Source: Antedon mediterranea (Eukaryota > Echinodermata > Crinoidea > Comatulida > Antedonidae). From it: 64,000 nt of DNA. Positions 9,327 through 63,989 of the stretch are shown piece after piece. The position numbers and the translations under genes were made by a program. Each line of letters opens with the position of its first letter. The stretch's first letter is position 1. A model generated the notes under the pieces. It made no database searches and was not told the DNA's origin. It saw only the letters and a program-made list of their open reading frames with translations. The stretch is from NCBI RefSeq assembly GCF_964355755.1, contig NC_092676.1, positions 312,501 to 376,500 of the forward strand. The letters are read 5' to 3'.

Positions 9327-10138
9327 ATGAGTGGTTACCCACAGCAACCAGGTGGTTACCCACAGCAACCAGGCAGTTACCCACAGCAACATGTTTACCC
9401 ACCACAGCAACAAACTGGTTATCCTCCAGCCCCTGGAGGGGGCTACCCAGCCCCAGATGCTTACCCTCCACCAGCTCCAGGAGCCTACCCTCCACCAGCT
9501 CCAGGGGCCTATCCTCCACCAGCTCCAGGGGCCTATCCTCCACCAGCTCCAGGGGCCTATCCTCCACCAGCTCCAGGGGCCTACCCTCCACCAGCTCCAG
9601 GGGCTTACCCTCCAGCACCTGCTGGTTATGCTCCTCCTCCAGCAGGGGTATATCCTCAAGTACCAAATCAGTATCCTCAACATGTTGGGGTAAGTATATA
9701 AGAGTGAGTTGTAGTTTATATTTTTGGAAATTCTCTGACTGACCCAGCACAAAATTTGCACTTATTGTTCTTGGTGTTATTATTCTTATTTATCTTTTAA
9801 CAACTATACAAGAAGTTGGTCTGTAAGTTTCTGATACATGTATTTATTTTCAGACTGGCTACCCTACTCATCCAGGTGGTATCACAGTTCACAAGGTAAA
9901 AACAATAAATAATATTTTATTTTTAAAGAAATTTTTACAAATTAGAGAATAAATACTTTGATGCTATTTGATTATTTTTCAGGTAAAGAAAATCAAAAAG
10001 AAGAAGAAACATAGCAGTAGTAGTAGCTCAAGTTCAAGTAGCAGCAGTAGCAGCAGCTCATCTGACAGTGACTATGGTTATCATGGCGGAAAGAAACATA
10101 AAGTCAAAAAACACAAGAAACATAAATTGAAGTTCTAA
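9327..10138 (+). CDS. PRR13: PRR13-like proline-rich protein with a basic and Ser/Asp-rich tail, 186 aa
   Basis: Coding exons: 9327-9689, 9854-9895, 9983-10138, all in phase 0. The ATG is two bases after a TTTCAG acceptor, so an upstream non-coding exon is likely. Residues 1-45 are GYPQQP-type repeats. Residues about 46-105 are AYPPPAPG repeats encoded by a 24 bp minisatellite. The end is TGYPTHPGG, then a Lys-rich block (KKIKKKKKH), 15 serines, DSD and a His/Lys tail KKHKKHKLKF. The order proline-rich, basic, poly-Ser then DSD resembles vertebrate PRR13 (TXR1), whose tail has the same plan. The match rests on composition and order, not on a conserved fold, so orthology is tentative. Other GYPPQ proteins (annexin A7 N-terminus, rhodopsin tails) share the first part but lack this tail. 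Confidence 0.75.
9464..9612 (+). repeat. 24 bp coding minisatellite (AYPPPAPG)
   Basis: Six near-identical units of GCCTACCCTCCACCAGCTCC plus four bases encode AYPPPAPG. Variation is confined to synonymous C/T changes. The unit length is a multiple of three, so copy-number change keeps frame. Confidence 0.9.
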
Positions 10139-20700: not shown

Positions 20701-23700
20701 TTACTATCGTGTAATTTGTTTAATTATTTTTCCACAACTAACTGTGCTTTGTAATCTTGTTGTTATAAGAGGATTTGTAGTTTGCAAATTAAATTTCTTC
20801 CTCCGTTGATAAATCCTTGTGCAATTAAATTTGCAGTGTAAATTTGTATTCTGGTGTAATAAGACTAAATCTATTGCAGTGCAATATTGGAACGGTCAAT
20901 TCGGTCATTGTTTATCGGTCATTGGCTCAATATATCATGGTCATTGAATTTCCATACTATTGTTCATACTAATGTCAATACATTGTATTTTCTTAACAAA
21001 ATTTACTAATGTTAATTTTTTGACAGGTGTTTAGTGGAATGAAGGTACAAGCCACTCAGATGGTTTGTGTAGAATTAGTTGCCAACGAACGTCACGGATC
21101 CTTTCGTAGTGTTGTCTTCCTTGGTTGTGTTAGATATGAAGCACTCAAACGCGTCTATGAGAATCGGGTAAGTATAGTTTTAAAAGTAAAAATTTTTCTT
21201 TAAACCAAATTGGCTATAATCGTCTGAAAGTTCGCAGTGATCTAATGGCAACACTGCCCTCACACTTAATTATTAACACGGCTCTGAAACTGGTATCTGA
21301 GTAGATGAATCCGAGTTTTAATCTCAATTTGGTGAACTTTAACATGGTTACTGTACTACAGTTACTGTCTACTGTAGACAAACTTTATGTGACAAAAATA
21401 TGTGATGTGCCCATATATGGACAAAATGATGTCATATCACTACCATGTATTTGGGCATGCCATAATTGATAATACTTTTTCTGTCAAACTAGTTTGATAT
21501 TGTAGACATAGCTTAACAGACAACTTTGTTGTTTGTACTAATCAACATGGCTGAAGATGTCTCCATGACGGTTCCAGTTCATTTCTATTATAGGAAAGTT
21601 GTTAAAAACTGTAATGACATTAGGAAATCCATCACCCCCAGGTGGTCGTGATTCATGTGCAATGTCTTTATTAAATTCTTTATTGATTCTGCCTCTGGTA
21701 CAACGTTTCATATAAAAACTTATTGACTTAACATATCATATTCCTTTGGGAGTATCAGTAACTTAAGTTAAGACATCACTCTTCTTATACATGTATCATA
21801 CTTAAGTTAAGACATCACAGTAATTCATGTACCAGACTTTATCTCCAAATAAACTGCAATGTATTTAAAATAATAAAAATTAGAAAAATTACATTAAATT
21901 TTGCATCGAGTCTTTCAAAAAGTTCATTGTAATCTTTAGTATAATCAATATTCTTTCTTGTCCTTATGTATGCAATGGCTTACAAAGTAAAATCATTTCA
22001 TATTAAGCATGTACTTAATTATAAAGCAGGTGAAGTCTATTTCAATCATTATAATCAAGTAGCTACTTTCAATTTGCCTTTCAGCCTCACTTTCAATTTG
22101 CCTTTCAGCCTCACTTTCAATTTGCCTTTCAGTCTCACTTTTAATTTAACATCTATTCCTACTTACTATGGTTGTTACATTTTAATGTTTGCTAATGTTG
22201 TATTTTTTTTAATCCTTACATTAACATTAACAAAGAGCTTTACATTAAACCGATCATCATTTTATTTGTTTCTATGTTTTCTTCATTTTTAGGCAACAAT
22301 GACGTCTAAAATGGTTGAGAAGGTTCCTATGAGATTCTTTCAAGGGGCGCATGGTAGAATTGAGTTTATTAGAATGAAGGGACCAGAGGGTAAAGGTCAT
22401 GCAGAGATGGCGGTCAGTCGGTATAGAAGGAGGTTGTCCAAAGATGGTAGCTATGACGATTATAGTACAGGTAGCGAAGGCAGTGGATGTAATAGTGTTA
22501 CAAATTCTCCGGAGGTAATCATTTTTTGAGGTTTTTTCCATAAAAATGTAAATAAAAAACATTTAATTTTATTTATAAGATTAAAAGTAAAAACAGAGAA
22601 AAAAGTCCTTCTTTTATATTAAGTAATTAATTTACAAAATAAATTTTGTTTAAATACACATATGAAATTTAATATTTTAGAACTCTGAAACTTGAAAAAT
22701 GTAGTATTATAATTTACTTAAATCTACAACTCAGCTACCAAACAGCCAAATTAGTTTTATTTTGCTGTATGCAAAATATTTAGTCGTAGCCTTTAAAATG
22801 TGATTTATGAAGGCTTGAATGCAGGAAAATGTCAAGTTTGTATCACAGTATTAATTTGTCAGGTTTAAGATAAGGTAATGAATAATGAATGCTACTGTCT
22901 GTACATAAATAAAACAATGCAGTTAATATCTGATGCGTTTTATCAACAATTCATAACATTTGCAAATCAATTTTTAATATATTCTTGCTTTTTTGCAACA
23001 TTTTAAGTCCTTTTTTTTTTTAAATATAGAAGATCCGTTATTCAAGCTCTTGCAACTCGTCCCCCATTCCTCAACTAAGGAATGGTTTAAAGAAGTCCAG
23101 TTCAGATAGCGGCATGTTGTTTGAGCTCACTAGAGAATCCAACGATTTACCAGAACGACAACGAAAACTTTCAAGTAAGAATTTGATTATTATTATATTT
23201 GAATTATATATCATCGGTATATATATATTAATCTAAAAGCAAATTACTGAAAAAATGACATTGAGTTATAAAAACAAATAATTATCATAATGTCCATTGA
23301 ATGGAAAGATTATTCTCCCATTCAACTGAAAACATTCATTATTTTTGCAGCAAATAACATTTATACCTTAAAATATATCAGCCTAAAATGTTGCTTTTAT
23401 TTAGTTTGTTTGTTCAAATTCAGATCCTAATGTAAAACTGACACGTCAGGGCTCAGACGCATTACAGTGGTTAAAACGAAGAACTTCCAAAGAACATATA
23501 TTGAATGCTCATTTGACGTATGTCACCCTGCCTTGGCATCGCATCATAGCAGGTAAGACATCCAAAGAACATATTATATTGAATGCTCATTTGACGTACG
23601 TCACACTGCCTTGGCATCGCATCATAGCAGGTAAGACATCCAAAGAACATATATTGAATGCTCATTTGACGTACGTCACACTGCCTTGGCATCGCATCAT

Positions 23701-25273
23701 AGCAGGTAAGACATTCAAAGAACATATATTGAATGCTCATTTAACATATGTCCCCCTGCCTTGGCATTGCATCATAGCAGGTAAGACATTCAAAGAACTT
23801 TATTTTGAATGCTCATTTAACATATGTCACACTACCTTGGCATTGCATCATAGCAGGTAAGACATTCAAAGAACTTTATATTGAATGCTCATTTAACATA
23901 TGTCACACTGCCTTGGCATCGCATCATAGCAGGTAAGACATCCAAAGAACATATATTGAATGCTCATTTAACATATGTCACACTGCCTTGGCATCGCATC
24001 ATAGCAGGTAAGACATCCAAAGAACATATATTGAATGCTCATTTGACGTACGTCACACTGCCTTGGCATCGCATCATAGCAGGTAAGACATCCAAAGAAC
24101 ATATATTGAATGCTCATTTAACATATGTCACACTGCCTTGGCATCGCATCATAGCAGGTAAGACATCCAAAGAACATATATTGAATGCTCATTTAACATA
24201 TGTCACACTGCCTTGGCATCGCATCATAGCAGGTAAGACATCCAAAGAACATATATTGAATGCTCATTTGACGTACGTCACACTGCCTTGGCATCGCATC
24301 ATAGCAGGTAAGACATCCAAAGAACATATATTGAATGCTCATTTAACATATGTCACACTGCCTTGGCATCGCATCATAGCAGGTAAGACATCCAAAGAAC
24401 ATATATTGAATGCTCATTTGACGTACGTCACACTGCCTTGGCATCGCATCATAGCAGGTAAGACATCCAAAGAACATATATTGAATGCTCATTTAACATA
24501 TGTCACACTGCCTTGGCATCGCATCATAGCAGGTAAGACATCCAAAGAACATATATTGAATGCTCATTTGACGTACGTCACACTGCCTTGGCATCGCATC
24601 ATAGCAGGTAAGACATCCAAAGAACATATATTGAATGCTCATTTGACGTACGTCACACTGCCTTGGCATCGCATCATAGCAGGTAAGACATTCAAAGAAC
24701 TTTATATTGAATGCTCATTTAACATAATATGTCACCCTGCCTTGGCATCGCATCATAGCAGGTAAGACATTCAAAGAAATTTATATTGAATGCTCATTTA
24801 ACATATGTCACCCTGCCTTGGCATTGCATCATAGCAGGTAAGACATTCAAAGAACGTATATTGAATGCTCATTTGACTTACGTCACACTGCCTTGGCATC
24901 GCATCATAGCAGGTAAGACATTCAAAGAACTTTATATTGAATGCTCATTATGTCACCCTGCCTTGGCATCGCATCATAGCAGGTAAGACATCAAATGCTT
25001 GTTTTTAATCTTTTATTTGTACTCTCCCTGTTTGTTTTTGTTTATTTATTTGATCAGCATAATATCAATACAATTAATAACATACAATACAACAAAGAAA
25101 TAAAAAATTCTGGGCAGAGGAAGCTTAAGCAAACTATCACTGGGTATTACTAAAATGAGAAGCTACCTTCATCAGAACTATTTTACTTGGTTTTATGAGA
25201 AGCATTTCATAATACTCTTCCATTTTGGTTTTCAGATGTTTTAGAAGTTCGACATGAACCTGTTCTAAGCTGA
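11731..25273 (+). CDS. KIAA0930: KIAA0930 homologue (DUF2045 family), 9 exons, 403 aa
   Basis: Coding exons: 11731-11842, 13262-13401, 17945-18052, 18793-18969, 21027-21167, 22293-22514, 23030-23174, 23424-23552, 25236-25273; all are phase-consistent. The length, 403 aa, is about that of the human protein. Recognisable blocks include DDMLFFVRRKEF, LGDPSVDWEE, LTCAVCT, QVFASPSKRRMDRKG, SYPNIFFLID, MVCVELVA, VRYEALKRVY, RMKGPEGKGHAEMAVSR and the C-terminal ILNAHLTYVTLPWHRI joined to DVLEVRHEPVLS. The family is conserved in animals, and its biochemical function is not established. The central Ser-rich part (residues about 275-345) is the least conserved. The main oddity is that the 3' end of exon 8 with its donor site is repeated 20 times into intron 8 (see the repeat entry). 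Introns 1, 2, 3, 4 and 5 also carry transposons or arrays. The start was chosen because it opens directly into the first exon, with phase fitting exon 2. Confidence 0.95.
11843..13261 (+). other. KIAA0930 intron 1
   Basis: Most of the intron is the 1.08 kb fold-back element. Before it, at about 11955-11985, a short GC-rich inverted motif (TTTCGGCCGCTAGTCCTTTCG type) stands out against the AT-rich background but is too short to classify. Confidence 0.6.
12136..13214. mobile_element. 1.08 kb fold-back (Mutator-like) element with 10 bp target duplication
   Basis: The two ends are inverted copies over at least 100 bases, beginning GGGTGTCACGAAAGCTCAGA and with further CACGAAAGCTAAGACCC blocks. 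Similarity continues inward over several hundred bases on each side (for example GTAAAATCATCAATTTAAA against its complement near 12592), so nearly the whole element folds back on itself. The direct repeat ATATTATAGG flanks it (12126-12135 and 13215-13224). A 10 bp duplication with long inverted ends is typical of Mutator-like elements. No transposase frame is present. Confidence 0.85.
15652..16979. mobile_element. palindromic MITE, copy 4, split by another element
   Basis: The left part (15652-15789) runs from TAAAGCTCTGTTTACACTAT to GATAGTGTA. The right part (16963-16979) is GTGTAGACAGAACTTTA. Together they make the usual inverted ends of this family; the gap is the element at 15790-16962. 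Confidence 0.8.
15790..16962. mobile_element. hAT-like non-autonomous element nested in the MITE
   Basis: Inverted ends CAGTGGCGGATCCAGG on the left and CTGGATCCGCCCCTG on the right. The direct repeat GTGTA lies at 15785-15789 and 16963-16967, so the target duplication is 5 bp. CAG-starting GGATCC-bearing ends occur in several hAT families, some with 5 bp duplications; assignment to hAT is from memory of end sequences only. The interior (1.17 kb) has no long open frame. Confidence 0.7.
18195..18540 (+). repeat. 34 bp minisatellite, 10 copies, in KIAA0930 intron 3
   Basis: Units of AATAATGTAGTTTAGAACCT followed by TCCCAGTATATTCC, with AATAAT/AATCAT and GAACC/GTACC variants. It starts about 140 bases after the exon 3 donor. 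Confidence 0.9.
19000..19293. mobile_element. MITE with TTAAAGATGTATTGTCCC-type ends
   Basis: Left end TTAAGGATGTAGTGTCCCC, right end GGGACAATATATCTTTAA. Interior words include GAATAACTATTATGTGACAT. Relatives lie at 39753-40079 (opposite interior orientation) and 35605-37211. The element starts 30 bases after the exon 4 donor of KIAA0930. Confidence 0.75.
19857..20115 (+). repeat. 27 bp satellite with TATA-like hairpin units, 9.5 copies
   Basis: Perfect units of CATGGTGTATAAATACCATA plus AGGCCTA. Each unit contains TATAAATA within an imperfect inverted repeat (ATGGT...ACCAT). There is essentially no divergence among units, so the array is young. It lies in KIAA0930 intron 4. Frames are open on both strands because 27 is a multiple of three; they are not genes. 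Confidence 0.95.
21366..21516. mobile_element. palindromic MITE, copy 5, in KIAA0930 intron 5
   Basis: Opens CTGTCTACTGTAGACAAACT and closes TCAAACTAGTTTGATATTGT followed by AGACATAGC. Inside are CATATATGGACA and ATGTCATATCACTACCAT. Compared with the other copies the interior is in reverse orientation. Confidence 0.8.
22065..22142 (+). repeat. 24 bp triplicate carrying acceptor-like TTTGCCTTTCAG
   Basis: Three units of ACTTTCAATTTGCCTTTCAG plus CCTC. Each contains a pyrimidine tract and CAG like a 3' splice site. It is intronic (KIAA0930 intron 5), about 150 bases upstream of the true exon 6 acceptor at 22292. Confidence 0.8.
23488..24994 (+). repeat. 20-copy array of KIAA0930 exon 8 end plus its 5' splice site
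   Basis: The unit starts in exon 8 at TCCAAAGAACAT, runs through the codons for ILNAHLTYVTLPWHRIIA, crosses the exon border CAG|GTAAGACA and restarts. Exon-end positions of the 20 donors: 23552, 23630, 23705, 23780, 23856, 23932, 24007, then every 75 bases to 24682, then 24761, 24837, 24912, 24982. Units 7-16 are exactly 75 bp. The two forms TTGACGTACGTCAC and TTAACATATGTCAC are interspersed, so longer blocks have been copied. All 20 copies keep CAGGTAAG intact. No copy beyond the first has an acceptor; the next clear acceptor is that of exon 9 at 25235. Joining from donors 1-4 keeps frame; from donor 5 onward the spacing breaks frame. Confidence 0.95.
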
Positions 25274-30600: not shown

Positions 30601-32097
30601 GGTAGTGATATGTTGCCAACTGGACAGCTATCTGATGAAAATGATCAGAAAAGAGCTGGAATTCCCTCTGAAAGTTCAATAAATAAAAAAACGGAAGCCA
30701 GTGATGCTGATAAAGACGATAAAAACAAAAGTGAATGTGATGCAAAACTAGAAAAAGAGGGAAACAAACAAGATAATTCACTACTAAGTAAGAACTTGCA
30801 AGAAACACGTACTAAACAATTCGATAAAAAATATGAGAAAAGTTATAATCACTATAGAACTGATGAAAGAAAAACAAGCCGTTGGCGTAATAAAGATGAA
30901 TGTAGTTATTTGAATGGTAAACAAACTCGACAAGCTTACTCAGGTGGCAACTCAACTCGATGTGTTAATCCGAAACTTCAAAGTGTATGGGATTCTCCTT
31001 CAGCAAATAAAAATACAACAGGTGACAAACAGAATTCAAGTAGTGTTAGAAAAGATCTACATAGTGAAGCTGGTTCTGTAAGTATATGCCACAAATCAAA
31101 TGAAACTAAAAATGAGCATCCCTGTGAGGTCAAAGATTCAACTAAAGAAACAGATGAAAGTTCAACAGCAAACACCAGAAGTCAACAGTATCATGATCGA
31201 CCTAGCAGCAGAGATCAACATCATGATCGACCAACCAGCAGAGATCAACATCATGATCGACCAACCAGCAGAGGTCAACATCATGATCGACTAAGCAGCA
31301 GAGGTCAACATCATGATCGACCAAGCAGCAGAGGTCAACATCATGATCGACCAAGCAGCAGAGGTCAACATCATGATCGACCAAGCAGCAGAGGTCAACA
31401 TGATCGACCAAGCAGCAGAGGTCAACATGATCGACCAAGCAGCAGAGGTCAACATCATGTTCGATCAAGCAGCAGAGGTCAACATCATGATCGACCAAGC
31501 AGCAGAGGTCAACATCATGATCGACCAGGCAGCAGAGGTCAACAATATGATCGACCAAGCACCAGAAATCAACAACATCATATACCAGGTACCAAAAGTC
31601 AACGGCCAAGATCCAGTGGTTCCACAAGAGAAAAGCAACACCATAGTATATCTAGTGAGATTAAGAGCGGTCATCTACTAAATAAAACAAGCAGTACTAG
31701 TGACAAAGTTGAAAAAAACAATTGTAATGATGATGAATTAAAACATAATGAACAATTGAAGAGTGATAAGCAAAGTAACAAAGACAAACAATCTGATCAT
31801 CAAAATTACAGAAGTAGAAATCATTTTCAAAGACAACAACATTCAGATGGCGAACCAAAGAAATTGATCAAAAGTGATAAAAACGATTCTTCGTCAACAT
31901 CGTTTACTCAAAATAAAAAGAAATGTGATTCAAAAGTAAGCCCAGTAAGTTGTGGGCTAAAGGACATAGCATATAGCATAATAGAAAAGAAATCAGAAAC
32001 AGACAATACTTCATCTGATATCTTTTTAGACAAAACTTCTGGACCATCTCCAGGGTTTAAATCGAACGTTCCTGTCTTACCTCCTCCTGGTTTCTAG
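27678..32097 (+). CDS. RNF25: RNF25-like E3 ubiquitin ligase (RWD + RING-H2), 8 exons, 845 aa
   Basis: Coding exons: 27678-27694, 28100-28186, 28340-28442, 28705-28772, 29042-29111, 29313-29384, 29666-30031, 30343-32097, all phase-consistent. The first exon codes only MASYE plus two bases. An RWD domain spans residues about 6-115 (EIDILNSIYIDEL, YPHVEPKITIKNPRG). The RING ligands are C131, C134, C149, H151, H154, C157, C192 and C195, with a 34-residue insert before the last pair, as in vertebrate RNF25. The conserved GGIIDVEAESNKF block follows. Exon 8 encodes a low-complexity tail of 584 residues rich in Lys, Ser, Asp and Asn, with 13 DRPSSRGQHH-type repeats, ending LPPPGF. Known role of the family: E3 ligase, reported in NF-kB activation and in the response to stalled ribosomes. 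The vertebrate protein is only about 460 aa, so this tail is much longer. Confidence 0.95.
27775..28045 (+). other. CTAGG/GGCCTAG-rich patch and hairpin in RNF25 intron 1
   Basis: A run unusually rich in CCTAGG, GGCTAG and TAGGCCTAG words at about 27870-28000. It is followed by an inverted repeat CATGGAGTAAA...TTTACTCCATG (about 28018-28044). No known family was recognised. Confidence 0.5.
28870..28995 (+). mobile_element. 3'-end remnant of a non-LTR retrotransposon in RNF25 intron 4
   Basis: One frame reads SSSLDRFKSLLKTCLF, stop, then ALEWRYKKL. This is the typical C-terminal motif of CR1/L2/Rex-type reverse-transcriptase proteins (FK..LKT.LF, then ALxRYK). Upstream parts are missing. Confidence 0.6.
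31191..31587 (+). repeat. 30 bp coding minisatellite in the RNF25 tail
   Basis: About 13 units of AGCAGCAGAGGTCAACATCA plus TGATCGACCA encode SSRGQHHDRP. Two units lack one His codon, so units are 27 or 30 bp and frame is kept throughout. Antisense frames (VDLCCLVDHD) are shadows. Confidence 0.95.
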
Positions 32098-41350: not shown

Positions 41351-44300
41351 ATGCTATCGTCTTTACCACCACCATACATGCAGGCTCAAAGTAAGAAACA
41401 TTAAGTTATGATTAATGTTCAATTAAATGTTCACTTTCAATTAATTATTTTTTTTAATACAATAATTGTTTTTTGTTTATTCTTATGTCAATTAAATTTT
41501 TTTTTATACTTTAACAAATATTTTCATACCTTCTTCTATTGTATGGTCTACCTAAAGAAAATTGAAAGATTTTATTTATATTTTCTTCCGAGACCATACA
41601 TACAGTAATGCCATAAGACCATAAGACCATACAGTAATGCCATAATCAAACCTGCACCTTCCATTCAAGAATAAATATTTAGTTTTATCAGTACAGCTAC
41701 TATCGAATAATACAGTATGTACTTATATCAGTACAGGTGTCTAATAATATGTAATTTCATCAGTACAGGTGTCTAATATTATGTAATTCTATCAGTACAG
41801 GTGTCTAATAATATGTAATTTCATCAGTACATGTGTCTAATAATATGTAATTTCATCAGTACATGTGTCTAATTTTATGTAATTTCATCACTACAGGTGT
41901 CTAATAATATGTAATTCTATCAGTACAGCTATCTAATAATTATATAATTTCATCAGTACAAGTGTCTAACATTATGTAATTTCATCAGTACAGGTGTCTA
42001 ATATTATGTAATTTCATCAAGTACAGGTGTCTAATAATATGTAATTTCATCAGTACAGGTGTACTGTGTATTCTAGATACCAAAAAACCAAATCATACTA
42101 GATGAAGCTTTAACTAATTACATGATTTTCTTTTTAGTATATGCCGATATGACGTCTGATGAAGCATCACCCTCAACTGTGCGGCCCTTAAGCCAGACAG
42201 TAGTGGTTCCCCCTTACATCTCATTTGACTATCCATCTCTCTGTAGCCCTACTGGCAATCAGCATTCATCCGCTATGATTGGCTACGGCTCAGCAGTTGC
42301 TAAACCGGTTGCAATCCCTTCAACTTCCCCATATTCAGTTTTTCCAATATGTAAGTAAACAGACCTCTTTTATTTATTGAATTCAATTCAATACTTTTTT
42401 TTTGGTAACTGCTTTATTATGTGAACCCATGGCTGTAGCCAGCATAAGGCAGATGAGGTGCTCACCTCATCTGAAATTTTCAATTTTTACTACCCACCCC
42501 CATCACAGATCTTCATATTTTATATCAATAATTATATTTAAAGCATCTTTGTCTCGTCTGATTTTAACCTACGGCCTTGTTACCTACTGTAAATCTTTAG
42601 TGGCCGTCAATCACTTTCTTTCACTTAAGTTTTAAGGATTTCCCTACTGTAGTACTTAATTAGATATGAGAATGTTTAAACTGCAAGGGTGTTTCCCTGT
42701 GATTGGTGAACATGCCCACATACTTTGATTAATAATAGCCAAAATCTCTAATATGCACAGTAGCTAATTTTGTTTCCTGAATTTAATCCCCAATATTGTT
42801 GAAACCACATAAAAATTACCTAATCCAAGAAATTTTTTTAACTTTTATGCAAGATTTGTTTTTTAAATATTTTTATATAGTTTATTTTATATCATTGTTG
42901 TTACTTTGGGAGTACGGAACCTGAACTCTTGTTATAGTGATTAGGTTCACTTTTAGGTTCCTGCCTACTCCCTTAGTTTCTGTGTTTTGTTTGTTTGTAA
43001 CTGGTTTTTGGCAATAAATAATAATAATAATAATAATGATTAATCTTGCCCCTTGGTCTCGTGCTGTTTGTATTGTATTTAACCCATTTTATCATATATT
43101 TAATATTGTAATATAATGTGATAAGCAAGACAATTTGAGTGATTGACAAAATAAAATAATTGAATTTAATGTTTAACTTTAAAAAAAAAAATTGTTTTGC
43201 AGCTAAATATCCACATTTATGGACAAAAGAAGATGTAAAGATTTGGCTAAAATGGTGTGTTGAAGAGTTTTCACTAAATGAGATTGCTGTTGATAGATTT
43301 TCGATGAATGGTAAAGCTTTGTGTCTGCTGCGTAAAGACGGCTTCAACGACCGTGTCCCCTACACTGGTGATGTTTTATATGAGCATCTTCAAACACTTT
43401 TACAACTTAAAAGTAAGTATTTTTTACAAAATAAAATCAGTTTTAAAACATGATAATTGTCGTATTTAATTGGGATTTTACCGGCGAGTACAGTTTATTT
43501 GTTGAGTACTTATTTAACAGAGTATTTTGAGCGTTGAGATTGTTCTTAACGAAAAAGCTTGCGTTGTTAATGTTTTCTATACGAATGATTTTCTGTTGAG
43601 CACAATCCGTATACAATTTACCATTCGAATATAAAAAGTACTCAACAAATATTTTAGAATGTTATCAATATTGTTTGACTCGGTGTCTTCACATTTTAGT
43701 CAGTATTGTAGCTTATCAATATTGTTTGACTCGGTGTCTTCACATTTTAGTCAGTATTGTAGCTTATCAATATTGTTTGACTCGGTGTCTTCACATTTTA
43801 GTCAGTATTGTAGCTTATCAATATTGTTTGACTCGGTGTCTTCACATTTTAGTCAGTATTGTAGCTTATCAATATTGTTTGACTCGTTGTCTTCACATTT
43901 TAGTCAGTATTGTAGCTTATCAATATTGTGTGACTCGGTGTCTTCACATTTTAGTCAGTATTGTAGCTTATCAATATTGTGTGACTCGGTGTCTTCACAT
44001 TTTAGTCAGTATTGTGTGTTATCAATATTGTTTGACTCGGTGTCTTCACATTTTAGTCAGTATTGTGTGTTATCAATATTGTTTGACTCGGTGTCTTCAC
44101 ATTTTAGTCAGTATTGTAGCTTATCAATATTGTGTGACTCGGTGTCTTCACATTTTAGTCAGTATTGTAGCTCATCAATATTGTGTGACTCGGTGTCTTC
44201 ACATTTTAGTCAGTATTGTAGCTTATCAATATTGTTTGACTCGGTGTCTTCACATTTTAGTCAGTATTGTAGCTTATCAATATTGTGTGACTCGGTGTCT

Positions 44301-47300
44301 TCACATTTTAGTCAGTATTGTAGCTTATCAATATTGTGTGACTCGGTGTCTTCACATTTTAGTCAGTATTGTAGCTTATCAATATTGTTTGACTCGGTGT
44401 CTTCACATTTTAGTCAGTATTGTAGCTTATCAATATTGTTTGACTCGTTGTCTTCACATTTTAGTCAGTATTGTAGCTTATCAATATTGTGTGACTCGTT
44501 GTCTTCGCATTTTAGTCAGTATTGTAGCTTATCAATATTGTGTGACTCGGTGTCTTCACATTTTAGTCGGTATTGTAGCTTATCAATATTGTTTGACTCG
44601 GTGTCTTCACATTTTAGTCAGTATTGTAGCTTATCAATATTGTGTGACTCGTTGTCTTTGCATTTTAGTCAGTATTGTAGCTTATCAATATTGTTTGACT
44701 CGGTGTCTTCACATTTTAGTCAGTATTGTAGCTTATCAATATTGTGTGACTCGGTGTCTTCACATTTTAGTCAGTATTGTAGCTTATCAATATTGTTTGA
44801 CTCGGTGTCTTCACATTTTAGTCAGTATTGTAGCTTATCAATATTGTGTGACTCGTTGTCTTCGCATTTTAGTCAGTATTGTAGCTTATCAATATTGTTT
44901 GACTCGGTGTCTTCACATTTTAGTCAGTATTGTAGCTTATCAATATTGTTTGACTCGGTGTCTTCACATTTTAGTCAGTATTGTAGCTTATCAATATTGT
45001 GTGACTCGGTGTCTTCACATTTTAGTCAGTATTGTAGCTTATCAATATTGTGTGACTCGGTGTCTTCACATTTTAGTCAGTATTGTAGCTTATCAATATT
45101 GTTTGACTCGGTGTCTTCACATTTTAGTCAGTATTGTAGCTTATCAATATTGTGTGACTTGGTGTCTTCACATTTTAGTCAGTATTGTAGCTTATCAATA
45201 TTGTGTGACTCGGTGTCTTCACATTTTAGTCAGTATTGTAGCTTATCAATATTGTTTGACTCGGTGTCTTCACATTTTAGTCAGTATTGTAGCTTATCAA
45301 TATTGTGTGACTCGTTGTCTTCACATTTTAGTCAGTATTGTAGCTTATCAATATTGTGTGACTCGTTGTCTTCACATTTTAGTCAGTATTGTAGCTTATC
45401 AATATTGTGTGACTCGTTGTCTTCACATTTTAGTCAGTATTGTAGCTTATCAATATTGTTTGACTCGGTGTCTTCACATTTTAGTCAGTATTGTAGCTTA
45501 TCAATATTGTTTGACTCGGTGTCTTCACATTTTAGTCAGTATTGTAGCTTATCAATATTGTTTGACTCGGTGTCTTCACATTTTAGTCAGTATTGTAGCT
45601 TATCAATATTGTTTGACTCGGTGTCTTCACATTTTAGTCAGTATTGTAGCTTATCAATATTGTTTGACTCGGTGTCTTCACATTTTAGTCAGTATTGTAG
45701 CTTATCAATATTGTTTGACTCGGTGTCTTCACATTTTAGTCAGTATTGTAGCTTATCAATATTGTGTGACTTGGTGTCTTCACATTTTAGTCAGTATTGT
45801 AGCTTATCAATATTGTGTGACTCGGTGTCTTCACATTTTAGTCAGTATTGTAGCTTATCAATATTGTTTGACTCGGTGTCTTCACATTTTAGTCAGTATT
45901 GTAGCTTATCAATATTGTGTGACTCGTTGTCTTCACATTTTAGTCAGTATTGTAGCTTATCAATATTGTGTGACTCGTTGTCTTCACATTTTAGTCAGTA
46001 TTGTAGCTTATCAATATTGTGTGACTCGTTGTCTTCACATTTTAGTCAGTATTGTAGCTTATCAATATTGTTTGACTCGGTGTCTTCACATTTTAGTCAG
46101 TATTGTAGCTTATCAATATTGTGTGACTCGTTGTCTTCGCATTTTAGTCAGTATTGTAGCTTATCAATATTGTTTGACTCGGTGTCTTCACATTTTAGTC
46201 AGTATTGTAGCTTATCAATATTGTTTGACTCGGTGTCTTCACATTTTAGTCAGTATTGTAGCTTATCAATATTGTTTGACTCGGTGTCTTCGCATTTTAG
46301 TCAGTATTGTAGCTTATCAATATTGTTTGACTCGGTGTCTTCACATTTTAGTCAGTATTGTAGCTTATCAATATTGTTTGATTCGGTGTCTTCACATTTT
46401 AGTCAGTATTGTAGCTTATCAATATTGTTTGACTCGGTGTCTTCACATTTTAGTCAGTATTGTAGCTTATCAATATTGTGTGACTCGGTGTCTTCACATT
46501 TTAGTCAGTATTGTAGCTTATCAATATTGTTTGACTCGGTGTCTTCACATTTTAGTCAGTATTGTAGCTTATCAATATTGTGTGACTCGTTGTCTTCACA
46601 TTTTAGTCAGTATTGTAGCTTATCAATATTGTGTGACTCGTTGTCTTCACATTTTAGTCAGTATTGTAGCTTATCAATATTGTTTGACTCGGTGTCTTCA
46701 CATTTTAGTCAGTATTGTAGCTTATCAATATTGTGTGACTCGTTGTCTTCACATTTTAGTCAGTATTGTAGCTTATCAATATTGTGTGACTCGTTGTCTT
46801 CACATTTTAGTCAGTATTGTAGCTTATCAATATTGTGTGACTCGTTGTCTTCACATTTTAGTCAGTATTGTAGCTTATCAATATTGTGTGACTCGGTGTC
46901 TTCACATTTTAGTCAGTATTGTAGCTTATCAATATTGTGTGACTCGTTGTCTTCACATTTTAGTCAGTATTGTAGCTTATCAATATTGTTTGACTCGGTG
47001 TCTTCACATTTTAGTCAGTATTGTAGCTTATCAATATTGTGTGACTCGGTGTCTTCACATTTTAGTCAGTATTGTAGCTTATCAATATTGTGTGACTCGG
47101 TGTCTTCACATTTTAGTCAGTATTGTAGCTTATCAATATTGTGTGACTCGGTGTCTTCACATTTTAGTCAGTATTGTAGCTTATCAATATTGTGTGACTC
47201 GGTGTCTTCACATTTTAGTCGGTATTGTAGCTTATCAATATTGTTTGACTCGGTGTCTTCGCATTTTAGTCAGTATTGTAGCTTATCAATATTGTGTGAC

Positions 47301-50300
47301 TCGGTGTCTTCACATTTTAGTCAGTATTGTAGCTTATCAATATTGTGTGACTCGTTGTCTTCACATTTTAGTCAGTATTGTAGCTTATCAATATTGTGTG
47401 ACTCGGTGTCTTCACATTTTAGTCAGTATTGTAGCTTATCAATATTGTGTGACTTGGTGTCTTCACATTTTAGTCAGTATTGTAGCTTATCAATATTGTG
47501 TGACTCGTTGTCTTCACATTTTAGTCAGTATTGTAGCTTATCAATATTGTTTGACTCGGTGTCTTCACATTTTAGTCAGTATTGTAGCTTATCAATATTG
47601 TGTGACTCGTTGTCTTCACATTTTAGTCAGTATTGTAGCTTATCAATATTGTGTGACTCGGTGTCTTCACATTTTAGTCAGTATTGTAGCTTATCAATAT
47701 TGTGTGACTCGGTGTCTTCACATTTTAGTCAGTATTGTAGCTTATCAATATTGTGTGACTCGGTGTCTTCACATTTTAGTCAGTATTGTAGCTTATCAAT
47801 ATTGTGTGACTCGGTGTCTTCACATTTTAGTCAGTATTGTAGCTTATCAATATTGTGTGACTCGGTGTCTTCACATTTTAGTCGGTATTGTAGCTTATCA
47901 ATATTGTTTGACTCGGTGTCTTCGCATTTTAGTCAGTATTGTAGCTTATCAATATTGTGTGACTCGGTGTCTTCACATTTTAGTCAGTATTGTAGCTTAT
48001 CAATATTGTGTGACTCGTTGTCTTCACATTTTAGTCAGTATTGTAGCTTATCAATATTGTGTGACTCGGTGTCTTCACATTTTAGTCAGTATTGTAGCTT
48101 ATCAATATTGTTTGACTCGGTGTCTTCGCATTTTAGTCAGTATTGTAGCTTATCAATATTGTTTGACTCGGTGTCTTCACATTTTAGTCAGTATTGTAGC
48201 TTATCAATATTGTTTGATTCGGTGTCTTCACATTTTAGTCAGTATTGTAGCTTATCAATATTGTTTGACTCGGTGTCTTCACATTTTAGTCAGTATTGTA
48301 GCTTATCAATATTGTGTGACTCGGTGTCTTCACATTTTAGTCAGTATTGTAGCTTATCAATATTGTGTGACTCGTTGTCTTCACATTTTAGTCAGTATTG
48401 TAGCTTATCAATATTGTGTGACTCGGTGTCTTCACATTTTAGTCAGTATTGTAGCTTATCAATATTGTGTGACTCGGTGTCTTCACATTTTAGTCAGTAT
48501 TGTAGCTTATCAATATTGTGTGACTCGGTGTCTTCACATTTTAGTCAGTATTGTAGCTTATCAATATTGTGTGACTCGGTGTCTTCACATTTTAGTCAGT
48601 ATTGTAGCTTATCAATATTGTGTGACTCGGTGTCTTCACATTTTAGTCGGTATTGTAGCTTATCAATATTGTTTGACTCGGTGTCTTCGCATTTTAGTCA
48701 GTATTGTAGCTTATCAATATTGTGTGACTCGGTGTCTTCACATTTTAGTCAGTATTGTAGCTTATCAATATTGTGTGACTCGTTGTCTTCACATTTTAGT
48801 CAGTATTGTAGCTTATCAATATTGTGTGACTCGGTGTCTTCACATTTTAGTCAGTATTGTAGCTTATCAATATTGTGTGACTCGGTGTCTTCACATTTTA
48901 GTCAGTATTGTAGCTTATCAATATTGTTTGACTCGGTGTCTTCACATTTTAGTCAGTATTGTAGCTTATCAATATTGTTTGACTCGGTGTCTTCACATTT
49001 TAGTCAGTATTGTAGCTTATCAATATTGTTTGACTCGGTGTCTTCACATTTTAGTCAGTATTGTAGCTTATCAATATTGTTTGACTCGGTGTCTTCACAT
49101 TTTAGTCAGTATTGTAGCTTATCAATATTGTGTGACTCGTTGTCTTCACATTTTAGTCAGTATTGTAGCTTATCAATATTGTGTGACTCGTTGTCTTCAC
49201 ATTTTAGTCAGTATTGTAGCTTATCAATATTGTTTGACTCGGTGTCTTCACATTTTAGTCAGTATTGTAGCTTATCAATATTGTGTGACTCGTTGTCTTC
49301 ACATTTTAGTCAGTATTGTAGCTTATCAATATTGTGTGACTCGTTGTCTTCACATTTTAGTCAGTATTGTAGCTTATCAATATTGTGTGACTCGTTGTCT
49401 TCACATTTTAGTCAGTATTGTAGCTTATCAATATTGTGTGACTCGGTGTCTTCACATTTTAGTCAGTATTGTAGCTTATCAATATTGTGTGACTCGTTGT
49501 CTTCACATTTTAGTCAGTATTGTAGCTTATCAATATTGTTTGACTCGGTGTCTTCACATTTTAGTCAGTATTGTAGCTTATCAATATTGTGTGACTCGGT
49601 GTCTTCACATTTTAGTCAGTATTGTAGCTTATCAATATTGTGTGACTCGGTGTCTTCACATTTTAGTCAGTATTGTAGCTTATCAATATTGTGTGACTCG
49701 GTGTCTTCACATTTTAGTCAGTATTGTAGCTTATCAATATTGTGTGACTCGGTGTCTTCACATTTTAGTCGGTATTGTAGCTTATCAATATTGTTTGACT
49801 CGGTGTCTTCGCATTTTAGTCAGTATTGTAGCTTATCAATATTGTGTGACTCGGTGTCTTCACATTTTAGTCAGTATTGTAGCTTATCAATATTGTGTGA
49901 CTCGTTGTCTTCACATTTTAGTCAGTATTGTAGCTTATCAATATTGTGTGACTCGGTGTCTTCACATTTTAGTCAGTATTGTAGCTTATCAATATTGTGT
50001 GACTTGGTGTCTTCACATTTTAGTCAGTATTGTAGCTTATCAATATTGTGTGACTCGTTGTCTTCACATTTTAGTCAGTATTGTAGCTTATCAATATTGT
50101 TTGACTCGGTGTCTTCACATTTTAGTCAGTATTGTAGCTTATCAATATTGTGTGACTCGTTGTCTTCACATTTTAGTCAGTATTGTAGCTTATCAATATT
50201 GTGTGACTCGGTGTCTTCACATTTTAGTCAGTATTGTAGCTTATCAATATTGTGTGACTCGGTGTCTTCACATTTTAGTCAGTATTGTAGCTTATCAATA

Positions 50301-53300
50301 TTGTGTGACTCGTTGTCTTCACATTTTAGTCAGTATTGTAGCTTATCAATATTGTTTGACTCGGTGTCTTCACATTTTAGTCAGTATTGTAGCTTATCAA
50401 TATTGTGTGACTCGTTGTCTTCACATTTTAGTCAGTATTGTAGCTTATCAATATTGTGTGACTCGGTGTCTTCACATTTTAGTCAGTATTGTAGCTTATC
50501 AATATTGTTTGACTCGGTGTCTTCGCATTTTAGTCAGTATTGTAGCTTATCAATATTGTTTGACTCGGTGTCTTCACATTTTAGTCAGTATTGTAGCTTA
50601 TCAATATTGTTTGATTCGGTGTCTTCACATTTTAGTCAGTATTGTAGCTTATCAATATTGTTTGACTCGGTGTCTTCACATTTTAGTCAGTATTGTAGCT
50701 TATCAATATTGTGTGACTCGGTGTCTTCACATTTTAGTCAGTATTGTAGCTTATCAATATTGTGTGACTCGTTGTCTTCACATTTTAGTCAGTATTGTAG
50801 CTTATCAATATTGTGTGACTCGGTGTCTTCACATTTTAGTCAGTATTGTAGCTTATCAATATTGTGTGACTCGGTGTCTTCACATTTTAGTCAGTATTGT
50901 AGCTTATCAATATTGTGTGACTCGGTGTCTTCACATTTTAGTCAGTATTGTAGCTTATCAATATTGTGTGACTCGGTGTCTTCACATTTTAGTCAGTATT
51001 GTAGCTTATCAATATTGTGTGACTCGGTGTCTTCACATTTTAGTCGGTATTGTAGCTTATCAATATTGTTTGACTCGGTGTCTTCGCATTTTAGTCAGTA
51101 TTGTAGCTTATCAATATTGTGTGACTCGGTGTCTTCACATTTTAGTCAGTATTGTAGCTTATCAATATTGTGTGACTCGTTGTCTTCACATTTTAGTCAG
51201 TATTGTAGCTTATCAATATTGTGTGACTCGGTGTCTTCACATTTTAGTCAGTATTGTAGCTTATCAATATTGTGTGACTCGGTGTCTTCACATTTTAGTC
51301 AGTATTGTAGCTTATCAATATTGTTTGACTCGGTGTCTTCACATTTTAGTCAGTATTGTAGCTTATCAATATTGTTTGACTCGGTGTCTTCACATTTTAG
51401 TCAGTATTGTAGCTTATCAATATTGTTTGACTCGGTGTCTTCACATTTTAGTCAGTATTGTAGCTTATCAATATTGTTTGACTCGTTGTCTTCACATTTT
51501 AGTCAGTATTGTATGTTATCAATATTGTGTGACTCGGTGTCTTCACATTTTAGTCAGTATTGTAGCTTATCAATATTGTTTGACTCGTTGTCTTCACATT
51601 TTAGTCAGTATTGTAGCTTATCAATATTGTGTGACTCGGTGTCTTCACATTTTAGTCAGTATTGTAGCTTATCAATATTGTGTGACTCGGTGTCTTCACA
51701 TTTTAGTCAGTATTGTAGCTTATCAATATTGTTTGACTCGGTGTCTTCACATTTTAGTCAGTATTGTAGCTTATCAATATTGTTTGACTCGGTGTCTTCA
51801 CATTTTAGTCAGTATTGTAGCTTATCAATATTGTTTGACTCGGTGTCTTCACATTTTAGTCAGTATTGTATGTTATCAATATTGTTTGACTCGGTGTCTT
51901 CACATTTTAGTCAGTATTGTAGCTTATCAATATTGTTTTTTTTTATGGTTGTCATTTTAAATTCATCGCTCTAATTATTGTTTTACTGGTGGTTATTTTG
52001 ATTCAGTATTTTCAGTGTAAATATTTAAAGATGATCAGTTAATAATAATTTAATAACCCAGATATTTTGGAGCTAATATAAATGTTTGTCTTGTACCAAG
52101 TGTAAATAATGACAACCATAATACGTATCAAGTCAACACATATTATAAGATAGCTGCCAGATATTTGCTTTTCTCATAGATATCTCTAACTTTTCTTGGT
52201 AAAAGATACATCAGTTGGGATAACATAGATATTAATTGTGACTTTATCTATCTATGACGTTAAAACACCTAAATTAAGGTCATCATTGTATTGTGTTCAT
52301 AAAGTTGCGTTGCAGAGCTGATTTGGGGTTCCACAGGACGATAAGATGAAATCTTTCATGTATCCTTACAGAAGTGACTTTCTGCTGATGTAACTTAATA
52401 TAATGTGCTTTATTGGTAGATAATAATTATACGAGGAGGGTTTATTTTAGTATTGCACAACACTGCTGCTATTGACATACGAAATAAATTAATGATTATT
52501 TTTAACCCTATTAAGGGACACATTTGGGACCCAACATGACCCTTAAAAGTGGAGGTGCACAAAAAAAAAGGATCAAATAATAGGATTTATTTTCACAGCA
52601 GTAGAACATTTAAAAAGATAATTTGCCCTTTACCAGAAAGTAAATTAAAAGGTTTAAATTAAATTATGCAAACTCATGAATGTTAAATTTCCAAAATTCT
52701 TTCCGAGTATGTTATTAAAAGCTTATAATATCATCATTTATTTACGGATGCTAAACTTCCCTTTGAAAAGTTTCCTATTTGAGTAGTTAGTACAGTATAT
52801 ACATACTAAGGTGGGGCATGTTAAGGAAGATTACGATATTGGAAGACCGAAGGGAAAGTCCCACAAAAGTTAAATGGTAGATTGAGATAATGCTTCATTT
52901 AATGTATAGAAGGTTATGCATCTTGGTGTACAGTACATTCATTTCTTTATTTCCATTTTTTTATTTTTACACAATCCAATTAGTAAGATTTTCTTAATAT
53001 TTTTACTTAAAGAAGTTTGTTGAATTGAATATTTACTGAAGTTGTAAAAAGTTCATTTAGAAATTTTGGAAGGTTGTGCATTCTTTTGGATTTTATGTTA
53101 CCACCCGGAACTTATTCTAAAAAGATTAAATTAACAAAAGAACTAATCGTTAGACATCAACAATGATTGTTATTAATGGTTTAAACCATGAATGACCTAA
53201 ATTTTATGAAGGATTAGATCATGAAAAATAATTCCCTGAAACTTTAATACCGGTATACAATAGGGCCTTAGGCTAACTTAAGTGTGATTGGAGGGAATAA

Positions 53301-61540: not shown

Positions 61541-63989
61541 ATGATTAAATTGTTCTCACTAAAGCAACAAAAGAAAGAAGAGGAGACATTGGGAAAGTCA
61601 GGCTCTAAGCCGAGAGGTTCCAGTGCTGCTCAGTTACGAATCCAGAAAGGTTAGCACCGCCACCGTTGTTGGTTACTACAAATACCTTGTGCATCGTGGG
61701 CCTAGCCCCAAACATTATATAGCCTGCTATATATATATTTATAATTAATTGTTATTTTTATTGATTTTGTGGATCTGGAAATGTGTAAAACTATTATTTA
61801 AATTAGTTTTTCTTTTGGAATTATTATTAAACCTTGCAGTTAATATTTTGTAGTTACTTTTTGTTGTGATGTGTTTGCCACTCCACAGCAGGCACAGAAC
61901 TAACACTATTCAGTGAGAGTGAGTGCGGTGGATTGAATTAAAAATAAACCTGGCAATGAAATAAATATATATTATTCTACTGTTTTCTTTTATTGGGTTA
62001 AATTGTGATAATAACATTAATTAGTTAGGTAAAAAAACTATAGTATTAATAATATGCAGTTTTGCAAATCACCTCCAAATCTCTTTAATCTGTCTTAAAA
62101 GTCGAGAACAGTGATCACCATAACATCGTCTGTTAGAGGCAGAATGTGCCATATATATTTCAAACAATTTAGTATTCTTTTTCTTAACTAAACATGTTTC
62201 TCCCTCTTATTCAGATATCGCAGATTTAAATTTACCACAGACATGCCAGATTGAATACCCTGACCCAGATGACCTGCTAGACTTCAAACTCACAATTTCA
62301 CCTGATGAAGGCTTTTATCGCAATGGTCGATTTGTATTTATATTTAAGGTATTCACAAATGACTTTTTTTATTCATTGTGTATATAGCGAAATTGAAAAA
62401 TAATCTTTTAATTGACAGTTAAATAAAAATATAAATTCATTTTGGCAATAAATAGGGGGAAAATAAATATCAAAACAATTTTGTTTATTTTGTTATACTT
62501 CTGCCCCTGAAGCTTTTTGCATACTTTATTTGTATCTCCATTGAGATAATCCAGCGCCACTAATACCCACAGAATTTTTCAGTAACTTGCCTTTTGATTT
62601 TAATAGATAATTAAATATTATATTAGAATAAATTGCAACATTATTTTAATAATATTTGTGTTTAGGTTGGTCCAGGTTATCCACATGATGCACCAAAAGT
62701 AAAATGTGAAACCAAGGTTTATCATCCAAACATTGACTTGGAGGGCAATGTATGTTTAAACATTCTCAGGTAAGACAGCCAATTCATCCAAACATTGACT
62801 TGGAGGGCAATGTATGTTTAAACATTCTCGGGTAAGACAGCCAATTCATCCAAACATTGACTTGGAGGGCAATGTATGTTTAAACATTCTCAGGTAAGAC
62901 AGCCAATTCATCCAAACATTGACTTGGAGGGCAATGTATGTTTAAACATTCTCGGGTAAGACAGCCAATTCATCCAAACATTGACTTGGAGGGCAATGTA
63001 TGTTTAAACATTCTCGGGTAAGACAGCCAATTCATCCAAACATTGACTTGGAGGGCAATGTATGTTTAAACATTCTCAGGTAAGACAGCCAATTCATCCA
63101 AACATTGACTTGGATGGCAATGTATGTTTAAACATTCTCAGGTAAGACAGCCAATTCATCCAAACATTGACTTGGAGGGCAATGTATGTTTAAACATTCT
63201 CAGGTAAGATAGCCAATTCATCCAAACATTGACTTGGAGGGCAATGTATGTTTAAACATCCTCAGGTAAGACAGCCAATTCTGGTTACCTTCTCCCAAAA
63301 TGTTTGTTATTCTGTAGTTAGTTTCTAAGTAAGTTGTATTCTGTGTGTATGTCAATTTTGTTTTCTGTTTTTTAGGGAAGACTGGAAACCGGTACTAACA
63401 ATCAGCTCAATCATTTACGGCCTACAATATCTTTTATTGGTATGTTCTAACAAATTTGATTTTGTTATTCCGAGTTCTTTATGAAAATACTTATTTCTTC
63501 TTTCAGTGAATGAAAACATGGTATTTTTTGTTTACATTTAAGTTAAGCTTTGTTAGAAAGTCATAGTCATTTGATTGAAAGTTTGTCATGCCTGCATATT
63601 AGAAATGACATTCAGTTGTAGAACTCAAATTAACACATCATTAAACCAGCCGTCATCACATTATTCCCTCGACAACACATGCCAGTAATACAATACGACA
63701 TACAGTGTATATAAAGTTAAAGTTAATGAGTGACTGTACCATTGTTTTCATTTTTCCATTTTGTTTCTTTCTATATTGCTTTATTTTATAATTATCTAAC
63801 ACTTTCTAATTATCTAACACTTTCTATCTCTTTTTAATTTTTAAGGAGCCTAATCCTGACGACCCATTGAACCGTGAAGCAGCTGAAGTTCTTAGACAAA
63901 ACAGGAAAATATTTGAGCAAAATGTAATGAAATCAATGCGTGGTGGATACATTGGCAATACATATTTTGACCGATGTTTAAGACTATGA
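61541..63989 (+). CDS. UBE2M: UBE2M/UBC12, NEDD8-conjugating E2 enzyme, 5 exons, 184 aa
   Basis: Coding exons: 61541-61649, 62215-62348, 62666-62769, 63376-63439, 63846-63989, all phase-consistent. The N-terminus [15 protein letters not shown] is the conserved UBC12 extension that docks on the NEDD8 E1 and on DCN1. The UBC fold follows, with the HPN motif ([16 protein letters not shown]) and catalytic cysteine C111, codon at 62753-62755, the same number as in the human enzyme. Then come [29 protein letters not shown] and the ending [15 protein letters not shown]. Role by family: receives NEDD8 from NAE and, with RBX1, modifies cullins. Oddity: the end of exon 3 with its donor is repeated nine times into intron 3. 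Reading past the first donor gives an immediate TAA, so only donor 1 can yield the full enzyme. Confidence 0.97.
62723..63282 (+). repeat. 9-copy array of UBE2M exon 3 end plus its 5' splice site
   Basis: The unit is exactly 62 bp. It starts in exon 3 at CATCCAAACATTGACTTGGA, passes the catalytic-cysteine codons and the border CTCAG|GTAAGACAGCCAATT, then restarts. Exon-end positions: 62769 and every 62 bases to 63265. Copies differ by single bases: CTCGG in place of CTCAG in copies 2, 4 and 5; GATGGC in copy 7; AAGATAG in copy 8; CATCCTCAG in copy 9. All nine keep GGTAAGA. No acceptor lies between copies; the next is that of exon 4 at 63375. Confidence 0.96.

Follow-up and report, generated by a model that had tools for sequence, protein, structure and literature searches.

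Minisatellites whose repeat unit crosses an exon boundary have been described in lancelets under the name 'mirages', and they are reported to leave regular splicing undisturbed (PMC3087553, PMC3902484). They have been reported in the amphioxus genes for Adh3, the globins BflGb6 and BflGb9, troponin C and PGBD5, with unit lengths ranging from 10 to 160 bp (PMC3087553, PMC3902484). A second system for comparison is the Rogers model of intron gain by duplication of AG/GT proto-splice sites, as discussed for potato RdRp (PMC4974935). With regard to the choice between donors, Carranza et al. found in human cells that long flanking introns favour the upstream one of two equal donors; where minigenes carried identical CAG/guaagu donors and the introns on either side measured 365 nt, the upstream donor was used exclusively, whereas short introns favoured the downstream donor (PMC9225289).

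The window, by which we mean the whole stretch of 64,000 nucleotides that was analysed (G+C 33%), contains the complete gene for the essential NEDD8 E2 enzyme UBE2M (Ubc12), with five coding exons according to the spliced translation. The spliced protein matched human UBE2M over its full length (phmmer, 1.8e-96 to 4p5o). A search of the 354-Mb genome found a single UBE2M copy, and no UBE2M retrocopy, which would be a natural record of splicing, was found in the same 354 Mb. The features of the gene and of the tandem array at the end of its third exon are as follows.

61541..61649, + strand: UBE2M coding exon 1 (spliced translation; whole protein against human UBE2M, 1.8e-96)
62215..62348, + strand: UBE2M exon 2 (spliced translation)
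62666..62769, + strand: UBE2M exon 3, 104 nt long and encoding the catalytic Cys111; the final 48 bp form the exon portion of repeat copy 1
62722..63279, + strand: UBE2M tandem array of nine 62-bp units (TRF, copy listing and column counts)
62770..63375, + strand: UBE2M intron 3 counted from donor 1, 606 nt, containing repeat copies 2–9
62784..63265, + strand: UBE2M copies 2–9 up to the decoy donors, with a stop after 116 residues for each
63376..63439, + strand: UBE2M exon 4, the target acceptor (spliced translation)
63846..63988, + strand: coding part of UBE2M exon 5, with the stop codon next (spliced translation)

TRF reported 9.0 copies of 62 bp with 98% match and a score of 1078, which is far beyond chance. 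Each unit joins the 48 bp that end exon 3 to the 14 bp that begin intron 3, so that the exon/intron boundary is crossed nine times, and each carries the NVCLNIL codons around the active-site Cys111 together with a donor, CAG|GTAAGA in the first copy. The donors follow bases 62769, 62831, 62893, 62955, 63017, 63079, 63141, 63203 and 63265. Copies 1, 3 and 6 are identical to each other; copies 2, 4 and 5 share an A>G change at donor position -2 that turns the donor into CGG|GTAAGA, and copies 7, 8 and 9 have one private substitution apiece. The first-pass annotation had described nine exact 62-bp copies over 62666–63439. Their number and length were correct, but the copies are near-identical rather than exact (4/62 columns vary), and the array itself lies inside that span and begins within exon 3. 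The reported active-site codons and donor were confirmed (the donor reads CAG|GTAAGA), as were the donor positions from 62769 to 63265 and the start of the acceptor exon at 63376. The annotation had also remarked that the donor cores are kept; GTAAG is indeed intact in 9/9 copies, but with so few variable columns this also fits young, homogenised repeats. It is very unlikely that the assembly has raised a smaller copy number to nine, since distinct variants are found among the copies, the array is just 560 bp long and numerous unrelated ladders are present in the assembly.

The array resembles the amphioxus mirages in that its tandem unit crosses the exon/intron boundary, in that its copies carry AG/GT splice signals, and in that arrays of this kind are present at several unrelated genes of one genome, here those for a dynein heavy chain, DHX8 and a nucleotide-sugar transporter. 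Unlike the mirages, the ladders described here reach 82 copies. Length polymorphism or somatic instability is a further mark of mirages; the ladders here are known from the sequence of one haplotype. The mirage reports concern cephalochordates, and the host taxon is no part of the structural definition. Amphioxus, which the mirage literature would suggest as host, does not fit the Hox genes found here (Hox9/10-like and Hox11/13-like posterior genes) or the G+C of 33% in the window; both speak, though not with certainty, for an ambulacrarian-like deuterostome. As judged from the sequence, the structural kind is most likely the one already known as lancelet mirages, of which the UBE2M array would be a further case. 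The Rogers model, as set out in the accessible part of that account (PMC4974935), likewise involves a tandem duplication that copies splice signals within a gene; the difference is that the UBE2M copies sit in a pre-existing intron and no new intron is evident. The ladders carry the mirage type into what looks like a further deuterostome lineage and into core genes, UBE2M and a dynein heavy chain among them, in which as many as 82 consecutive donors are intact.

A second array of the same kind lies upstream in the window.

23486..24992, + strand: tandem array of a 75-bp unit, 20 copies (TRF), preceded by an open exon-like stretch

Its first copy continues the open exon-like stretch, which ends CAG|GTAAGACA. 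Its initial units keep an open reading frame, so that use of donors 2 to 5 could insert in-frame blocks of about 25 residues ahead of the first stop, in contrast to UBE2M, where a stop follows at every later donor. Attempts to identify the gene at 23.4 kb gave no identity.

Elsewhere in the genome, three ladders were found as complete units of exon, ladder and exon. These belong to a dynein heavy chain gene (82 donors, 68-bp unit; the best matches include DNAH3, 6e-15), to DHX8 (22 donors, 37-bp unit, 1e-20) and to a nucleotide-sugar transporter (10 donors, 25-bp unit, PF04142), and in all three a splice from donor 1 to the acceptor that follows restores the conserved protein. The dynein ladder (L081, G000:C1:19362500-19370500) consists of 82 head-to-tail copies of the exon end with GTAAG intact in 82/82, and it lengthens one intron to 5621 nt. 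Three more arrays (L074, L082 and L083) are probably also exon-end ladders, as judged solely by open exon-like stretches. Other donor-containing arrays (L073, L076, L078 and L080) are not at recognisable exon ends, and L077 and L084 are satellite-like or in-frame coding repeats. By its structure, the UBE2M array is one of a class. The second array of the window belongs to it, as do three or more arrays elsewhere that lie between a pair of conserved exons.

The occurrence of donor ladders in several genes might suggest one mobile or intron-generating repeat that inserts at donors. We regard this as extremely improbable, since each ladder is derived from its own host exon and the units are unrelated to one another. 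The UBE2M unit belongs to no dispersed family: genome searches returned a self-match only, and the 11-mer pair occurred at four places. An introner or dispersed repeat was rejected for UBE2M within the scope of these searches.

The consequences of using the individual UBE2M donors differ sharply. Donor 1 gives the 104-nt exon 3 and an intron of 606 nt, and it is only with this donor that the conserved UBE2M protein is obtained. Donors 2–9 would give exons of 166–600 nt and introns of 544–110 nt. The first-pass annotation was right that any donor but the first adds an in-frame TAA; because this stop follows immediately (AG|G TAA), all eight donors lead to one shared truncated product of 116 residues. 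The stop lies 58–492 nt upstream of the exon 3/4 junction. By the usual rule, a stop at such a distance before the junction makes the mRNA competent for nonsense-mediated decay (NMD).

This arrangement, together with the intact donors in all nine copies, would suit a form of dose control in which a regulated share of the transcripts uses donors 2–9, stops after 116 residues and enters NMD, with copy number or splicing factors setting the UBE2M level. We nevertheless consider such control distinctly unlikely. Similar ladders are found at functionally unrelated genes, donor motifs are without clear excess in arrays (see below), exon definition predicts the use of donor 1, and aberrant mRNA was not seen with the lancelet mirages (PMC3902484).

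The strength of the donor sequences cannot single out donor 1, because its 8/9 matches to CAG|GTAAGT do not set it above donors 3 and 6–9. Nor did folding of the RNA give any signal of a structure masking the UBE2M donors (MFE z-score 0.25). With essentially equal donors, selection among them would be positional. The situation is similar to that in the minigenes of Carranza et al. with regard to the near-identical CAG|GTAAG donors, the short exon and the flanking introns of more than 250 nt, whereas it differs in that the minigenes had two engineered donors in human cells and UBE2M has nine natural ones in another animal (PMC9225289). A short exon 3 between introns of this length points to exon definition and donor 1. 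With 317 and 606 nt for the two introns, donor 1 would, by analogy, be expected to be used almost always, and the remaining ladder to be removed as intron.

Our preferred reading, to which we assign a probability of roughly 0.8, is that the UBE2M array is a minisatellite of the mirage type, born at the exon boundary, with donor 1 chosen by position and the array carried as a nearly neutral passenger. The sequence shows that a stretch made up of 48 bp from exon 3 and 14 bp from intron 3 was duplicated in tandem and grew to nine copies. As the conservation of the protein shows, copy 1 is still the true exon end, and copies 2–9 are carried within intron 3. The mature UBE2M mRNA would be made with donor 1; following the published rules, the 104-nt exon 3 is probably defined across the exon, so that preference falls on the donor at the shortest distance from its 3' splice site. 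Occasional use of donors 2–9 would yield an NMD-competent transcript that amounts to harmless noise, and the array may be kept because it is nearly neutral in a genome rich in minisatellites.

The first-pass annotation had seen a paradox in the persistence of the array, and had offered as explanations either a strongly enforced choice of the first donor or a dose control by NMD. The former is the better-supported half, considering that the conserved protein needs donor 1, that the donors are equal and that the minigenes provide a precedent (PMC9225289), although the last of these is an analogy. The paradox itself is weakened, as like arrays occur at unrelated genes here and in lancelets, where aberrant mRNAs were not seen, and as donors show no clear excess in arrays. 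The ladders represent natural near-isogenic competition tests of the rule by which exon definition selects whichever donor lies closest to the acceptor upstream.

Removal of the array in steps, with CAG|GTAAG serving as both acceptor and donor, would also leave the mRNA unchanged. Within the unit, CATTCTCAG|GTAAGA does resemble a juxtaposed 3'/5' splice site, but a long pyrimidine tract is missing, a step of 62 nt would be a very short intron, and the dynein ladder (GTTGCAAAG|GTAAGT) is without such a feature. Recursive splicing of this kind is therefore highly improbable.

To put the ladders in relation to the general density of repeats, we compared the window with 30 homeobox loci; tandem repeats make up 22.7% of the former and 1.7% of the latter. 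Distinct arrays with donor motifs, defined by three 8-mers at 53–83 bp spacing and counted by eye, numbered 5 in about 105 Mb for CAGGTAAG, with one satellite family on C3 left out of the count, and likewise 5 in about 82 Mb for AAGGTAAG, among the matches listed. The control, a reversed CAGGTAAG of equal composition, gave 5 arrays in about 129 Mb, likewise among the matches listed. The raw matches numbered 1616, as compared to 2403 with the motif AGGTAAG reversed. Thus, among the matches listed and with small numbers, donor 8-mers showed no clear excess in arrays over the reversed-motif control, and a regulatory role is for this reason not needed. The satellite family that was left out is a 79-bp satellite-like repeat with CAGGTAAG, which is found in several blocks over a few Mb (G000:C3:19.6-22.3 Mb).

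The decoy donors show no visible decay. In six exon-end arrays, 0/34 variable columns fell in GTAAG, which accounts for 30/308 columns (about 0.015, as the product of per-array probabilities). This result is suggestive and may point to donors being under selection, but the test is not a fair one because the arrays were found by way of intact donors.

The length of the introns bears on how the ladders may have started. Without the eight extra copies, intron 3 of UBE2M would measure about 110 nt. The intron remaining after the last donor is 86 nt in DHX8, 113 nt in dynein and 110 nt in UBE2M, as compared to 816 nt in the nucleotide-sugar transporter; the three short remainders belong to the ladders L072, L081 and window 62722-63375, respectively. 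These values suggest that the introns may have been short before the arrays grew. Since a downstream donor is favoured in short introns, an ancestor with two copies should, by analogy, have mis-spliced, and a stage with few copies would seem to be harmful. The amplification may have been fast, short introns in this animal may be handled differently from those in human cells, or part of the intron may have been lost.

In a further reading, splicing is switched by copy number. At two or three copies, the intron from donor 1 would be about 170–235 nt, short enough for the poison last donor to win, while many copies would make the intron long and lead, by exon definition, to donor 1. We regard this switch as rather unlikely. 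If it were true, UBE2M output would vary with the length of the array, and short alleles would act as low-dose alleles sensitive to NMD. For the ladders with a remainder of 86–113 nt (3/4 complete cases), passage through a few-copy stage becomes testable.

The window holds further repeats. A 51-bp unit is repeated 162 times over 8.3 kb (43662-51936) with almost no indels, and two frames are open there for more than 2700 codons, which is a repeat artefact because 51 is a multiple of 3. This array was considered as an acceptor ladder and rejected, as no exon follows it. Tandem repeats are also found in coding-like frames, namely PGAYPPPA units and IMIDQAAEVN units in the window (9331-9614 and 31190-31578) and an 18-residue tandem unit in L084, indicating that minisatellites in this genome expand inside open reading frames too. 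Finally, a Hox cluster at G000:C2:7.83-8.21 Mb has some eleven or more genes in what appears to be an ordered arrangement, and it includes Hox9/10-like and Hox11/13-like posterior genes as assigned by reading.
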